Positions 1-44,234 of a stretch of DNA of 64,000 nucleotides are shown here, piece by piece. This DNA comes from Fibrobacter sp. UWH4 (lineage in GTDB: Bacteria; Fibrobacterota; Fibrobacteria; Fibrobacterales; Fibrobacteraceae). Position 1 is the first letter of the stretch. The number at the start of each line of letters is the position of its first letter. Under the pieces are notes generated by a model, which made no database searches, was not told the DNA's origin, and worked only from the letters and a program-made list of their open reading frames with translations. A program made the position numbers and the translations under genes. The stretch spans positions 558,001 through 622,000 of the forward strand of contig NZ_FRAY01000001.1 in the NCBI RefSeq assembly GCF_900142475.1, in the 5' to 3' direction.

Positions 1-3000
1 GGTGACCGTGGTCAGGTGATTTACGAGAATGAAAAGGGTGAGGTGGTTACCCGCCTGGGTTCGCTGGATGTGGATTCGTCTATTACCAAAGATGATGTCT
101 TGGACCAGTACGATTACACGACTCCTTCGGCAAAGACCCAGAAAGTCAACGGAAAGGATGTTCCCGTTACCAACTATTATCAGACCGACGGTGTGGTGCG
201 TGACCCCAAGTATATCCATTCTGTAAGTGAAAAGGTTGGCGGAACCGATACGATTATCGCCAATGGCGATAGAAATGTGGTTCTTGGCGGTGCCGGTGCC
301 GATACTATTTCCCTGAATGGTTCTGATAACGTTGCTGTTGGTGATAATGGCGAAGTCAAGTTTGCTAATAGTGTTGTGGTCAAGAACGCTTCTGGCGATG
401 TGGTTAATCATGTTTATGGTGATTCTACCAAGACTTACCTGAACTATGTGCAGTCTACGTTTGATGCAGATGGCGATACGGACACGATTACAACCAAGGA
501 TGGAAAGAATGTTGTAATTGGCGGTACCGCTTCCGACAGGATTGCTACTGGCAATGGTAACGATATTATTGTCGGTGATGGTGGCGAAGCTTATGTGGAC
601 CGCAATCGTGAAGCCCTCTTGGTGAGCAACCAGGGCCGTAATCTTGATGGTAATAGCGCGGGTTCCGATGTCATTAAGACAAGCGGCGGCGACAACGTTA
701 TCTTGGGCGGTTTGAATTCCCAGTCTAGAGACTTCGATTTCGTTAAGAATGAGCAGTCTGGAGAATGGGAAACGACCTCTGTTGACGAAAATAATGAAGA
801 CCTGATTGTGGCTGGCTCCGGCAAGGATGTTGTGTTCGGCGATAATGCCTATGCGTCCTTCCGTGGAAATTACAAGATGGTCGAAGAAAAGTTGAATACC
901 AAACTTCCGACTTTCCAGACGGGTAATTCCAGTGAAGAAAAGAATATCTCTGATACTTCTATTCTGAGCTTCAACTTTACGGGTGATTCCGACAAGAAAA
1001 TTACCCCGGAAATGGAAGCTGGTGTAGAATCCGCTAAGAACTGGAATAATATTTCGGGTCTTTTGTCCGGGACTTACGGTAATAATGACAATGAAATTGT
1101 CCGCTTTGATGACGGTACCCGTGCAAGCGCTATTAGCGTAAGCTACGGCGGTCATGAAAATCATCGTAACACGTCTACGGATTCCCGTATTAACCTGCAA
1201 GGTTACAACCATTGGCTCAATGGTGACGACGGAAATACGATCTTGATGAATTCGGGCCTTATGTCTACTGCGCCGAACCAGCAGTGCGGCAGCCTCTTGG
1301 AAGTGTCTGTCGATGGTCTTGCTCAGTATTACGAAAGCTACGATGTCATTGTTTATCTCGATATTCCGGATTCCCATTCTTCTGCAAACGAAAGTGTTCG
1401 TAAGATTACTTTGTCTACGGAAGATGGTAAGTTTACGAAGTCGTACTATATTGATGATAGGGCTGGAAAGACATTTAGTGGCTCTCTTGTCAAAGGTAAC
1501 AACGAGACTGTTCAAGGCGCCATTAACGCTGTGAAATCTGATGATAAAAATGTTGTTCAGAACTATGTTGTCTTTAAGGTAGGCAAACAGTTTGCTGCAG
1601 ATCGCATTATCATAACGGTTGAAGATGGTCTGCATCCTTACAGCTATAACGGCAAGGATCTGCCGGGAATTGCGGGTCTTCAGATTAGGGGCGATTTGCA
1701 TAAGCAAGATGTAGCTGTTTCGACCGATATTGACTATGGTGGAAACGACGTGGTTGATACGAATGGCGGTGACGATATTGTTGTCGGCGGTACCGGTAAA
1801 GATGTCATTGTAACCTATGGTGACGAACGTTATAGCATTGACGATAATGATGTCGTTTATGGCGATAATGCTAAGTTGCTGTTTGCTGATCGTGATAACA
1901 ACCCGGATACGGCAACGACGCTTACCAAGGCTGAATCCATTGTTGCAAGCAATCTTGCTGCAACATACGATGATGCAATCCGTACTGGTGATGGCAACGA
2001 CGTTGTGGTGGGCGGTATCGGTAACGATGTTATCTTCTCCGGTGATGTCAAGGTTGATGATGGTACCGAAGAAACCGCAGGCCGCTTTGAGGCCGTGAAG
2101 GACAATGACGCAAACAAGAATACGGATAAGGTCAAGCTTGACAATCTGGATATCTTGAGCTTCAACTTTACCGCCAATAATAGCGGTGACGATGCACGCG
2201 TAGCTCATGGCGTTGCGGCTGGTGTTGTTGTCGATGACGATTGGCACGACTTCTATCGCAATGATCGTGGTGTCTTGATGTGCGACGACACTAAGGCCGG
2301 CTGGACTCAGAACTTGTATGAGGAAGAAGTTAACGCAATTGCCAATAACCATGCGTTCAATACGTTTGCTACGGTTGATGGTGTGAATGTCGACCTGTAC
2401 GGTCGCAGTGAGCAGAATAACAATCCTCTGGGACTTTCTGCCTATACACAGAAAAATGTTGCCGAACTGGATGGCGATACTGCTAATTCTAAGATCTTCA
2501 ATTTTTCCTTGGCGCTGCACTCTCAAGAAGAGATTGTTCTTAAACTGTCTGGTTTGAATAATTATCTTGCCCGTAAGGAAAGTGGCGAAACTAAGGGTGA
2601 TCAAAAGACTTATGATGTCTATGTTTACCTGGGCGGCGATAATGACAATTCAGATACCTACAACTTCGTTTATGACGTATTCTCCGATTCGTATGGCGAC
2701 TATGCGGGTGAACATCGTTATGTGAACGATTGGGTCGGTCACTTCTTTGATGGTGATTACCGTGAAGCCACTTGCACTGATGCAGATAAGGCTCGCGTGG
2801 TTGCTGAAAACGGCGTTACTCCCCGTGTCGAAATGATTGGCAACTATGTTGTATTCCGTGGTGTTACCGGCGATAAATTTACGGTGCATATCAAGAATTA
2901 TCATATTCCTGGTTCTGATCAGTGGCCGAAGAACCTGCCCGTGATTACTGCTGTGCAGATTGTGACGGGTAAGGGGCGCTTTGAACTGAATGAAGATGGT

Positions 3001-4146
3001 AATCCGAAGACCAATAATGATGGCGAAAAGGTGAGAGCGAATGTTGCGATTGGCGGTGATCACGATAAGGATCTTGTCTATGGTGATGACGCTTATCTCG
3101 AATTCGATTTCGATATTCCGTATGGCGTCGGTGAACATATCAACGACTTCCAGAACCGTGTCGTTTCAGCCAACTCTATGGCAATTAAACATGACGATGC
3201 TGTTAAGGTTGATACGCGTGATATCATTTACACCGGAAAGGACCGCGATGTGGTTGTGGGTGGTGAAGATGCCGATACAATCAAGACGGGTGCTGCCGAT
3301 GACGTTGTTGTCGGTGACAATGCCAACTTGATGATGGAACACAATAACCCGATTGGCGTGTTTACTCCGAGTAACGAAATCACGTTGGACGACCATACAA
3401 TCGATACTTCTACTAAGGAAGATTACCTTGGTCATGACAATGTTACAGTTGAAACCATTCAGCGCAAGTATGATCCTAACTGGGGCAACCAGAACAATGG
3501 CTACTGGGGCTGGGGTCAGTATGGTTGGGGCTGGTATAGCAACAACAATAGTGCCCGCGGTTCTATTGAAGGAATCAAGGAACCTGTTGATACCGAAAAT
3601 ACGGGCCGCATGGACAATATCGTTGATAACGAAGGTAGTAACCTGCTGATTGAAGGCCAAACCAGTTCCGACGTTCTGTATGATCCGAGTGCATTTGAAA
3701 ATCAAGATGATAATGGCGACAATCATGGCGATGATAATCAGCCGGTGAATGACAACGAACAGCCTGTTGATGACTCTCAGCCTGAAGAAGAATTGACTCA
3801 GGATGACGGCGTTATTAGACAGATTGTTCTCGATAAGAAGGATCAGGGCCGCGACATTTCTATCGAGGCTGGCGAAACTATCATGTTGGTCTTGACGGAT
3901 TGGTTGGAAGGTAATCCTTGGTATCAACCGAATGTCCTTCTTCAAGTGGATCTGTTGAATGGCGATAATTTGAATCATTCACTTTTGGTAAGCTGGAATG
4001 ATCATGCAGAACTTGTGACGTTCACTGAGAACTGCAAAAATATTGACATCCCTGATTCTGCAAATGTCGATGGTGAACACAAGATTGTTCTGTTGGTTTC
4101 ATCCGAAGAAGATCTTAATTTCAAAGCGACTGTGACAAATTCCTAG
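1..4146 (+). CDS. Giant RTX-type repetitive exoprotein, 3' part only (5' end outside window)
   Basis: The reading frame is open from the first base, so about 1381 C-terminal residues of a larger protein are seen; the GTG at 16 is internal. At least seven blocks resemble degenerate RTX nonapeptide repeats, with strings such as GGAGADTISL, GNGNDIIVGDG, GDGNDVVVGGIGNDVIF and GAADDVVVGDN; in RTX proteins such repeats bind calcium and fold as a beta-roll after secretion. Between them are two related globular modules, each beginning ILSFNFT (about 960 and 2150) and ending with a YDV-V-Y-L strand and a VVF strand region. Near 3480-3550 is a Gly/Trp/Tyr/Asn-rich linker, then an acidic Asp/Asn-rich linker and a C-terminal beta-rich domain of about 110 residues. 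The next gene starts 8 bases downstream. Probably a cell-surface or secreted adhesin or matrix protein; the exact role is unknown. Confidence 0.8.
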   Translation, partial: GDRGQVIYENEKGEVVTRLGSLDVDSSITKDDVLDQYDYTTPSAKTQKVNGKDVPVTNYYQTDGVVRDPKYIHSVSEKVGGTDTIIANGDRNVVLGGAGADTISLNGSDNVAVGDNGEVKFANSVVVKNASGDVVNHVYGDSTKTYLNYVQSTFDADGDTDTITTKDGKNVVIGGTASDRIATGNGNDIIVGDGGEAYVDRNREALLVSNQGRNLDGNSAGSDVIKTSGGDNVILGGLNSQSRDFDFVKNEQSGEWETTSVDENNEDLIVAGSGKDVVFGDNAYASFRGNYKMVEEKLNTKLPTFQTGNSSEEKNISDTSILSFNFTGDSDKKITPEMEAGVESAKNWNNISGLLSGTYGNNDNEIVRFDDGTRASAISVSYGGHENHRNTSTDSRINLQGYNHWLNGDDGNTILMNSGLMSTAPNQQCGSLLEVSVDGLAQYYESYDVIVYLDIPDSHSSANESVRKITLSTEDGKFTKSYYIDDRAGKTFSGSLVKGNNETVQGAINAVKSDDKNVVQNYVVFKVGKQFAADRIIITVEDGLHPYSYNGKDLPGIAGLQIRGDLHKQDVAVSTDIDYGGNDVVDTNGGDDIVVGGTGKDVIVTYGDERYSIDDNDVVYGDNAKLLFADRDNNPDTATTLTKAESIVASNLAATYDDAIRTGDGNDVVVGGIGNDVIFSGDVKVDDGTEETAGRFEAVKDNDANKNTDKVKLDNLDILSFNFTANNSGDDARVAHGVAAGVVVDDDWHDFYRNDRGVLMCDDTKAGWTQNLYEEEVNAIANNHAFNTFATVDGVNVDLYGRSEQNNNPLGLSAYTQKNVAELDGDTANSKIFNFSLALHSQEEIVLKLSGLNNYLARKESGETKGDQKTYDVYVYLGGDNDNSDTYNFVYDVFSDSYGDYAGEHRYVNDWVGHFFDGDYREATCTDADKARVVAENGVTPRVEMIGNYVVFRGVTGDKFTVHIKNYHIPGSDQWPKNLPVITAVQIVTGKGRFELNEDGNPKTNNDGEKVRANVAIGGDHDKDLVYGDDAYLEFDFDIPYGVGEHINDFQNRVVSANSMAIKHDDAVKVDTRDIIYTGKDRDVVVGGEDADTIKTGAADDVVVGDNANLMMEHNNPIGVFTPSNEITLDDHTIDTSTKEDYLGHDNVTVETIQRKYDPNWGNQNNGYWGWGQYGWGWYSNNNSARGSIEGIKEPVDTENTGRMDNIVDNEGSNLLIEGQTSSDVLYDPSAFENQDDNGDNHGDDNQPVNDNEQPVDDSQPEEELTQDDGVIRQIVLDKKDQGRDISIEAGETIMLVLTDWLEGNPWYQPNVLLQVDLLNGDNLNHSLLVSWNDHAELVTFTENCKNIDIPDSANVDGEHKIVLLVSSEEDLNFKATVTNS

Positions 4147-12070: not shown

Positions 12071-12925
12071 TTAGTTCTGCATCTGTCGGTCTTCTTTCCA
12101 GAACCTCTTCTTCTGAGAATCCTTCTTCATGCGTTTGGCGAAGGCGAGTTCGGACTTGTCGATAGCCTTTTCGCTTTTCTCGATTTTCTTCAGGATATCC
12201 TTGTCGTCGGGGGAGGCCTCGTTTCTTGCGATGTTCAGGTACAGCTTGGCGGTTTCGAACTGGTCAAGTTCGTTGTAGGCTTCCGTAATCATGAACAGGG
12301 CCTCGGTATGGCGCTTGCTGTTCGGATAGGTTTCCAGGAATTCCTTCAGATAGATGACGGCTGCCTGGTACTTGTCCATGCGCATGTAGAGTCTGGCCGT
12401 CTGGAATTCCTTTTCGGCAAGGCGTTCCACCAGCAGGTTGTAGTAGTAGTTCACCGAGTCGCGCAGCGGAGATTCGGGGTAGTTCGACAGGTAACGTTCG
12501 AAGTCCCTCATGGCGATCGTCGTGTTGGCTTCGTCGCGGCTCACGCGGAATTCCATGTTGAACGAAGAAATGGCCTTGCGGAATTCGGCGGTCTCGATAA
12601 ACGGGGAACCGGGGAAGTTCAGGATAAAGCTGCCGTACTCGCCGCGGGCCTCGATCCAGTCTTCCATGTTGAAATAGCTTTCCGCCATCAGGAACTGTGC
12701 CTGTTCCATGTAGCCGGTCCCGGCGCAGGTGGCGAGAATTTCTTCGAGCTTGTCGGTTGCACGCCCGTACTTCTCTTTCTTGAAGAGTTCCTCGGCGTTC
12801 TCGTAGCGGATTCTGCACCATTCGGTATGTTTCATCTTGGTCTGCCCGCTAGACGAACAACCTATAAAAGCGATTGCAAAGGCCAAAAGATAAAGGAATA
12901 GGGGAATCTTTTTGAACAGGTTCAT
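12071..12925 (-). CDS. bamD: BamD-like outer membrane assembly lipoprotein
   Basis: 284 residues. A lipoprotein signal ends in the lipobox AFIGC, with Cys near residue 23 as the lipidation site. Tandem TPR-like helix pairs follow (AEELFKKEKYGRATDKLEE, then MEQAQFLMAESYF and so on), matching BamD/YfiO in order and length (E. coli BamD is about 245 residues). BamD is the essential lipoprotein that works with BamA to insert beta-barrels in the outer membrane. The C-terminus carries an extra Lys-rich helix. It is divergent from lptF, with a 67-base shared promoter region. Confidence 0.85.
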   Translation of the reverse strand: MNLFKKIPLFLYLLAFAIAFIGCSSSGQTKMKHTEWCRIRYENAEELFKKEKYGRATDKLEEILATCAGTGYMEQAQFLMAESYFNMEDWIEARGEYGSFILNFPGSPFIETAEFRKAISSFNMEFRVSRDEANTTIAMRDFERYLSNYPESPLRDSVNYYYNLLVERLAEKEFQTARLYMRMDKYQAAVIYLKEFLETYPNSKRHTEALFMITEAYNELDQFETAKLYLNIARNEASPDDKDILKKIEKSEKAIDKSELAFAKRMKKDSQKKRFWKEDRQMQN

Positions 12926-42754: not shown

Positions 42755-43357
42755 ATGTTCAGTTTCTTGAATGGAAAGAGTCCCTTTGACGAAGCCGAAG
42801 AACGCCTGGAAGCAGGCGACACCGTCAACGGAAAACCGAGACTTCCCAGCGGCCCGATCATGGGCTGGCAGGATGGCGTGTTCCTCCTGGTCATTGTCGG
42901 CCTGATTGTGGGCGGTTATCAGTATTACCAGCATGTGAAACGCAGCTGCGCCGAAACGTTCGCCCAGTGCGATTCTCTGTATGTCGCCGCGACCGCAGAT
43001 GCGACGAAGTTTGCCGAAGTGGAAGCCTGCTACGAGTCCACCTGGGACCTGGCTTTCGTTAGCGATACTCTGGAAGTGCTCCGCCAGAACCGCCTCGGCG
43101 AAATCGAGGATATGCGCAACGTTCAGAAGGACTTGCTCGCAAATGCAAATGATGCTCTCGACAAGGGCGATACCGCTGCTGCCGCCAAGATCGTGACGGA
43201 ATACAAGGGTGCTATGCTCCTGTATACCGGCGACAAGAGCGAATGGGACGAAATCGTGAAAATCTCGGAAATCCAGGCCGCGAAGGATGCCGCTAAGGCC
43301 TCTGCGGTCGCTGCTGAACCGGCTAATTCCGCTGCCGACTCTAGCGCGGCAAAGTAG
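42755..43357 (+). CDS. Single-helix membrane protein with Ala-rich tail, unknown
   Basis: 200 residues. A soluble N-terminal 45 residues, one membrane helix (about 49-65), then a helical, mildly cysteine-containing part and a C-terminal Ala/Ser-rich tail. No motif recognised. It may be cotranscribed with sufE, 21 bases upstream, and ends before a strong terminator. Confidence 0.5.
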   Translation: MFSFLNGKSPFDEAEERLEAGDTVNGKPRLPSGPIMGWQDGVFLLVIVGLIVGGYQYYQHVKRSCAETFAQCDSLYVAATADATKFAEVEACYESTWDLAFVSDTLEVLRQNRLGEIEDMRNVQKDLLANANDALDKGDTAAAAKIVTEYKGAMLLYTGDKSEWDEIVKISEIQAAKDAAKASAVAAEPANSAADSSAAK

Positions 43358-43521: not shown

Positions 43522-43778
43522 ACCTATAAAAGTGTTGCTTAGGACAATTTATAGGTAGGAAACGGCTTGCAAATTGCGCCTGTTTTGAATATATACCTAT
43601 AAACAGGGGTTATTTGTTTGTTTTATAGGTGCTTAATTGTTTAATTTGTATGCAAGTACAGCGAAAGTTGAAAAAATATACCTATAAAGAGTCCGTTTTC
43701 GATTTGTTTATAGGTACGATTGCAAAGAGCGCTTTTTTTGTTACCTATAAACAAGGTGCTTTATGCCGGCTTATAGGT
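43522..43778. repeat. Array of four ACCTATAAA-N17/18-TTTATAGGT inverted pairs
   Basis: Pairs at 43522-43556, 43595-43630, 43680-43715 and 43743-43778. Each spans 35 or 36 bases with 9-base arms; seven of eight arms are exact, the last (CTTATAGGT) has one mismatch. In three pairs the arms extend to TACCTATAA on one side. The inner 17-18 bases differ completely between units, as do the gaps between pairs (38, 49 and 27 bases). The constant arm spacing suggests a binding site or hairpin unit and not chance. Confidence 0.85.
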
Positions 43779-43826: not shown

Positions 43827-44234
43827 TTAAAGTGTAGTGACTTCGATTTCCCTCTCGGTTTCCGAGAGGATTTTTATTTCAACCTTATGCGTGAGGCCGG
43901 GGTCGTTGTCTTCGAGGCGTTCGGGCCATTCGATCAGGCTGATCCCCTTTTCGAGGTAGTCGGGGTCGAGGCCGACCTCGTTCAGGTCGGCGCCGCCGTC
44001 TAGGCGGTAAAGGTCGAAGTGAAAAATCGGCGGGTTGTTCGGGTATTCGTGCAGGATGGTATAGGTGGGGGAGCAGACGGATCCCGTGAAACCGAGACCT
44101 TTGCAGACCCCGCGACTGATGACCGTCTTGCCTGCGCCCAGGTTCCCGTAAAGAGCCACCTTGTCGCCCGGCTTCAGGCTACGCCCGAATTCAACCGCCC
44201 AGTTATAAGTTTCTTTTTCCGACTTAAAAATCAT
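43827..44234 (-). CDS. tsaE: tRNA threonylcarbamoyladenosine biosynthesis ATPase TsaE
   Basis: 135 residues. Walker A GNLGAGKTVISRG near residue 32, then SPTYTILHEYP, FHFDLYRL and LIEWPERL, the family pattern. TsaE works with TsaB and TsaD to form the t6A modification at position 37 of ANN-decoding tRNAs. No tsaB or tsaD is nearby. Confidence 0.92.
   Translation of the reverse strand: MIFKSEKETYNWAVEFGRSLKPGDKVALYGNLGAGKTVISRGVCKGLGFTGSVCSPTYTILHEYPNNPPIFHFDLYRLDGGADLNEVGLDPDYLEKGISLIEWPERLEDNDPGLTHKVEIKILSETEREIEVTTL

Follow-up and report, generated by a model that had tools for sequence, protein, structure and literature searches.

What is the role of four inverted units, alike in build and different in their centres, that lie between two convergent genes of a Fibrobacter? 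The units occupy positions 43522 to 43778 of the window, by which the whole stretch of 64,000 nucleotides from Fibrobacter sp. UWH4 that was analysed is meant; the window belongs to a 3.70-Mb genome, labelled G000. Two matters had to be settled: what kind of site the array is, and which protein, if any, belongs to it.

The array in the window

The four units, to which no strand is assigned, are built as follows. Unit 1 (43522..43556; 35 bp) is ACCTATAAA-N17-TTTATAGGT and is present at the same place and with the same arms in the sister species G053; unit 2 (43595..43630; 36 bp) is ACCTATAAA-N18-TTTATAGGT, with its centre 73-74 bp (7 turns) from that of unit 1; unit 3 (43680..43715; 36 bp) has the same composition, with its centre a further 85 bp (8 turns) away; unit 4 (43743..43778; 36 bp) is ACCTATAAA-N18-CTTATAGGT, with one degenerate arm and its centre 63 bp (6 turns) beyond that of unit 3. 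The eight arms reported by the initial annotation were recovered at their positions, seven of them exact and the eighth being ACCTATAAG, as were the spans of 35, 36, 36, and 36 bp. The 9-base arm described there marks the right sites but is too short, as the arm actually extends to GTACCTATAAA. Centres and gaps had also been described as differing; this is borne out in that they are mostly unrelated between arrays, but the lengths of the gaps are not free, since the distances between unit centres cluster (see below). The dyad centre of the units is 82% A/T.

A second motif (TTARTTTGT...) was seen in the gap sequences, in the window as TTAATTTGTATGCAAG in the inner gap (43641..43656, + strand). 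It recurs, in either orientation, in an inner gap of Fibrobacter arrays with several arm types, and may represent a promoter-like site or one for a host factor. Two genes converge on the array: on the left an unnamed gene of 200 aa (42755..43357, + strand), which lies outside the system, and on the right a gene of 135 aa (43827..44234, - strand), which we take to encode a TsaE-like ATPase. One lone exact ACCTATAAA is found outside the array, at window positions 12860-12868, and is within chance expectation.

Arrays in the genome and helical phasing

The whole genome has 39 matches to ACCTATAAA-N14-22-TTTATAGGT and 0 to the reversed control pattern, a count far above the chance frequency that the initial annotation had asked to be compared. 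When one or two degenerate arms are tolerated, G000 holds at least 50 units (39 exact) in 14 intergenic arrays, mostly of four units each; none of the 14 lies within a clear gene. Eight arrays are placed between convergent, three between tandem, and three between divergent gene pairs, according to approximate gene calls by codon usage, and no common function was found among their neighbours.

Distances between unit centres cluster near 63, 74, 85, 95, and 105 bp, that is, 6, 7, 8, 9, and 10 helical turns. The best period is 10.7 bp in G000 (R 0.90; at 10.5 bp R 0.84, Rayleigh p ~1e-11), 10.55 bp in other genomes (R 0.90, p ~1e-31), and 10.50 bp in 36 arrays of other members of the gene family described below (104 distances, R 0.89, p ~1e-36). 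Whole helical turns thus separate the units, which all lie on the same face of the helix. Variation in one arm of a unit is independent of that in the other, as seen at arm position 4 (T or C) in the G011 group (11 T/T, 20 mixed, and 6 C/C units; Fisher p 0.74), so that the arms are not RNA stems; this independence speaks against selection for arm-arm base pairing at that position. No Rfam family matched the array at threshold.

Selection on the arms and multiplication of the arrays

Seven orthologous arrays are shared by the sister species G000 and G053. Substitutions were counted at 4/468 arm positions, against 32/461 in the centres, 55/888 in the gaps, and 121/1659 in the flanks (Fisher p <1e-6 each); indel columns number 0 in the centres, 3 in the gaps, and 42 in the flanks. 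Arm change is therefore ~8-fold below that of centres, gaps, and flanks, a contrast that is an upper estimate because arrays with wholly lost arms would be missed. The comparison of G019 with G090/G060 agrees with conservation of the arms, with two of its nine pairs aligning poorly. Such in-place purifying selection on dispersed arms exceeds the need of a purely selfish repeat.

Arrays with ACCYATAA arms are present in 18 of 80 Fibrobacter genomes. In the close relative G003, a short terminator-like stretch takes the place of the window array between neighbours of 84-93% DNA identity, and the G003 orthologue of the right flanking TsaE-like gene has no array beside it. No support was obtained for a chromosomal position common to different clades, and the neighbours that they share look like chance. 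Many arrays of the G090/G054/G019 clade are paralogues (~70-87% identity) that go back to one ~300-bp element with units A to D, the homology of which stops ~10 bp to the left and ~30 bp to the right of the units; array L036 of G000 is of the same family, at ~67% identity. These copies indicate that arrays multiplied, with later divergence falling mostly outside the arms. The earlier suggestion of recombination or transposon-end sites is met halfway by this four-unit element, with its many paralogous copies in one clade, but neither an array-flanked transposon nor a target-site duplication was seen. Array-free relatives were found for a G090 array, with no clean boundary or target duplication at the empty site; several other species carry an unrelated repeat family, GTCATCCTGAGTCCGTAAGGACGAAGGATCCAGTTAA, at array-free orthologues of this site (L164-L172). 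In Treponema, a dispersed copy of 140 bp with two units (L319 1497-1636 against L265 2198-2338) is 90% identical to a gene-linked array; its edges are sharp, and no flush target duplication was found. As array pairs occur at distances of ~30 kb or 3.5 kb, a mobile element of such a length with an array at each end was considered; it was rejected, since the genes within the 3.5-kb interval of G011 are ordinary ones.

A gene family linked to the arrays

When the genes flanking arrays were clustered, one recurrent family was found in every array clade, with the array directly upstream. In G000, the linked gene (G000:C5:39236-40054) encodes ~273 aa and is preceded at 175 bp by a five-unit array. 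The protein has no significant Pfam, NCBIfam, or PHROGs match; a PADLOC search aligned its residues 159-271 with PDC-S68, in the C-terminal nuclease domain of the latter (E 1e-24). A second family member in the same genome is located in G000:C6:90000-96000 (L352; gene 2309-3205, + strand), with TTACATACT arms upstream.

A scan of the collection found at least 569 stretches encoding relatives (pattern-matched), 80 of which were kept for analysis; these derive from Fibrobacter, Treponema, Lachnospiraceae, Butyrivibrio, and others, covering three phyla. At least three exact inverted units are present in 37 of 78 upstream regions of 700 bp, against 0 of 780 shuffles, and these arrays have arm words of their own and the same phasing. 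The array is upstream of the family gene in 36 of 73 cases and downstream in 4 of 73. About half of the family has no clear upstream array by this strict test; such members may have diverged arms or no array. Family genes are patchily distributed, with 1-8 paralogues per genome. Several gene-linked arrays of Treponema and Lachnospiraceae (L235, L267, L245, L285, L230) consist of as many as 8 units in nearly perfect tandem, which suggests growth through duplication in whole helical turns. Relatives are also present in three short records of the phage collection; in the plasmid collection, only the nuclease domain of larger ATPases/helicases was matched. The nuclease domain is found alone in viral contigs (L310-L318) and at the end of plasmid ATPases/helicases (hits H4-H11).

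At least three exact units were counted in 12 of 12 genomes that have arrays linked to the cognate gene and in 3 of 68 elsewhere (Fisher p 7.6e-12); since it was the linked array that defined cognate status, the information lies in how few of the other genomes have such units. In G006 the cognate gene is lost and the remaining arrays of that type have mutated arms; the same genome keeps the TTACATACT gene, and its TTACATACT arrays are plentiful (26 units). Arrays with no detected gene occur in some incomplete genomes (G022; G019 and G060 for TTACATACT).

Predicted structure of the linked protein

The AlphaFold model of the linked protein (mean pLDDT 93.5) has a beta-hairpin (residues 42-57) between two helices, followed by the nuclease domain. 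The protein is thus predicted to combine a variable beta-hairpin with a VSR/TnsA-like PD-(D/E)XK nuclease fold; a variable segment of ~seven residues sits in the hairpin, which would contact DNA. The nuclease domain has I-Bth0305I (Z 8.8; 89 of 97 residues, 2.6 A) and TnsA (Z 8.3; 114 residues) among its best structural neighbours. With Foldseek alone, nothing matched below E 0.001, and a sequence search found no solved relative. All 65 sequences compared have E170, E187, E216, and H217, and 64 have D201.

Arm types, hairpin residues, and cassette exchange

Each paralogue has its own arms, and the arm word tracks the ~seven residues after LR(V/I). Arm words among the paralogues include GTACCTATAAA, GGGGC(A/G)TATAA, ATGCATATAAA, TTACATACTAA, TTACGGACTAAA, TACGGATAAAA, and more; GGGGCATATAA and TTACATACT also serve as labels for family relatives. 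The segment D(K/R)CR(Q/N)S(Y/F) is paired with GTACCTATAAA arms in three clades, HK..(F/Y) with GGGGC(A/G)TATAA arms, and NH.. with TTACATACTAA. Similarity between arms is correlated with similarity between hairpin segments when the C-terminal part is controlled for (partial r 0.55, Mantel p 0.0005, n=37), a test in which shared descent is not fully removed.

Four arm types are dispersed through genomes, one of them in Treponema. Dispersed GGGCRTATA arms are found in other Fibrobacter (e.g., 25 units in G018), and GTCATATA arms in Treponema relatives; in G000 itself, TTACATACT arms form 14 exact units, beside the second family gene at G000:C6 and elsewhere, so that this one genome has two arm types.

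Between G077 and G076/G016, the array and the first ~50 codons of the family gene are wholly different and the arms are of different types, whereas the remainder of the gene is 94-96% and the flanks are 94-98% identical. The alignment indicates that array and first ~50 codons have been replaced as a block, which is compatible with copying into an element-free allele and is not proof of it. Three composite arrays (L327, L348, L351; G076:C8, G022:C22, G077:C14) consist of ACCTATAA units and one unit of another arm type, GGC(A/C)TATAA...TATATGCCCC, at the correct helical slot. In-place retuning of the G076 array was considered and discarded, the composite array being already present in its relatives.

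Discussion

We consider it probable that the array is a multi-dimer landing pad for a cognate nuclease in a repeat-nuclease partnership. The proposal of the initial annotation that closest resembles this, an array of binding sites for an as yet unknown protein, has strong support, and the family to which this protein probably belongs has been identified. The arrays, their phasing, the selection on their arms, the linkage and co-occurrence with the gene, the covariation of arms and residues, the cassette exchange, and the multiplication of arrays form the established part of this account.

The mechanism that we propose is as follows. Several dimers of a sequence-specific nuclease, whose gene lies at another locus of the genome (G000:C5:39236-40054), would use the window array as a landing pad. 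Each unit of 35-36 bp would bind one dimer, each monomer reading one arm (GTACCTATAAA) through the beta-hairpin near its N-terminus; the four dimers would share one face of the helix, because the units are whole helical turns apart, and could contact each other to form a single complex. The nuclease gene itself is probably autoregulated through the array upstream of it. The dispersed arrays would be small non-autonomous repeats that belong to the nuclease and are kept tuned to it. We infer binding, the dimer state, cooperative assembly, autoregulation, cleavage, and spread of arrays caused by the nuclease. The broader proposition, which we hold to be evenly poised between true and false, is that of a widespread, undescribed class of DNA-reading nucleases in which ~seven hairpin residues set the specificity, the cassette is swapped together with its own array, and dispersed arrays are retuned.

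Other explanations were weighed against this partnership. The arrays might be depots that hold a restrained defensive nuclease on the host chromosome, ready for invading DNA, with specificity cassettes swapped as in restriction systems. PDC-S68 is a candidate defence helicase, and the match (E 1e-24) to its nuclease domain would fit this, as would the patchy distribution, the 1-8 paralogues per genome, and the block exchange of the specificity part, all typical of defence genes; but no linked defence genes were found in the flanks examined, the family genes seem solitary, and a need for ~14 chromosomal arrays would be left unexplained. We regard the depot as unlikely. Still less probable is a role in organising the chromosome, with arrays that anchor or loop DNA through a binding protein whose nuclease fold no longer cuts. 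It would account for the large number of phased sites in each genome, most of them in 3'-3' intergenic regions, and for in-place purifying selection on arms and spacing. It is at odds with the invariant catalytic-type residues and with the positions of the arrays, which differ between clades of the same genus, whole sets being absent in close relatives, unlike what is expected of a core chromosome function.

Control of the transcription of neighbours by DNA looping between operators seems quite improbable: the phased multi-operator layout and the one array upstream of the nuclease gene are in its favour, but eight of the 14 arrays in G000 lie between convergent genes, and the neighbours share no function. 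A promoter operator for the neighbours had already been called unlikely, and the convergent contexts fit that judgement. We give hardly any credence to the remaining reading, that of hairpins with loops of 17-18 nt, either of RNA, as also raised by the initial annotation, or of single strands. The arms are complementary, but arm variants are independent and not compensatory, no Rfam family was found at threshold, and the gaps follow the 10.5-bp DNA helix.

The landing-pad partnership would explain a class of intergenic repeats that has no described function. It also offers a testable code of protein/DNA recognition, in which reading head and sites co-evolve naturally; if the broader proposition of a widespread class is true, hundreds of pairs would yield a natural one-to-one code. 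A family with no Pfam or NCBIfam match, in rumen and gut bacteria, has a putative target array beside the gene in about half of the tested loci, so that specificity would be readable from genomes alone.

Comparison with known systems

No description of this array/nuclease design was found in the open-access library searched. PDC-S68, listed by PADLOC as a candidate defence helicase, has the C-terminal nuclease domain in common with the linked protein; the helicase part is absent from the latter (~273 aa), and its N-terminal half is an unrelated, putative reading domain. TnsA of Tn7 is matched by the predicted nuclease domain in its PD-(D/E)XK fold, but the arrays are not known as element ends; TnsB/TnsC and a transposon gene set were not noticed beside the genes or arrays, among predicted flanking ORFs that were annotated in part. 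The EDxHD homing endonuclease I-Bth0305I, reported to act as a dimer on a very long DNA target (PMC3943268), shares the VSR-like catalytic fold; a homing enzyme recognises its own insertion site as present in the empty allele, whereas the family described here is linked to its own upstream and dispersed arrays.

By its logic, the closest system is REPIN/RAYT, in which dispersed short intergenic inverted-repeat elements are linked to a nuclease-type gene and enzyme and repeat have co-evolved (PMC3116915, PMC8266576); here, too, a dispersed repeat goes with a cognate gene that has a copy of the repeat beside it. The two differ in chemistry. RAYTs are HuH tyrosine enzymes that act on folded single-stranded REP hairpins. 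For the linked protein, no significant Pfam/NCBIfam match pointed to a HuH Y1 tyrosine transposase, and the modelled domain is of PD-(D/E)XK type; for the arrays, no arm covariation as in REP-like single-strand hairpins was found, and the units are helically phased. The enzyme is thus set apart by its predicted PD-(D/E)XK/VSR-like fold, and the repeats by arrays phased on double-stranded DNA.
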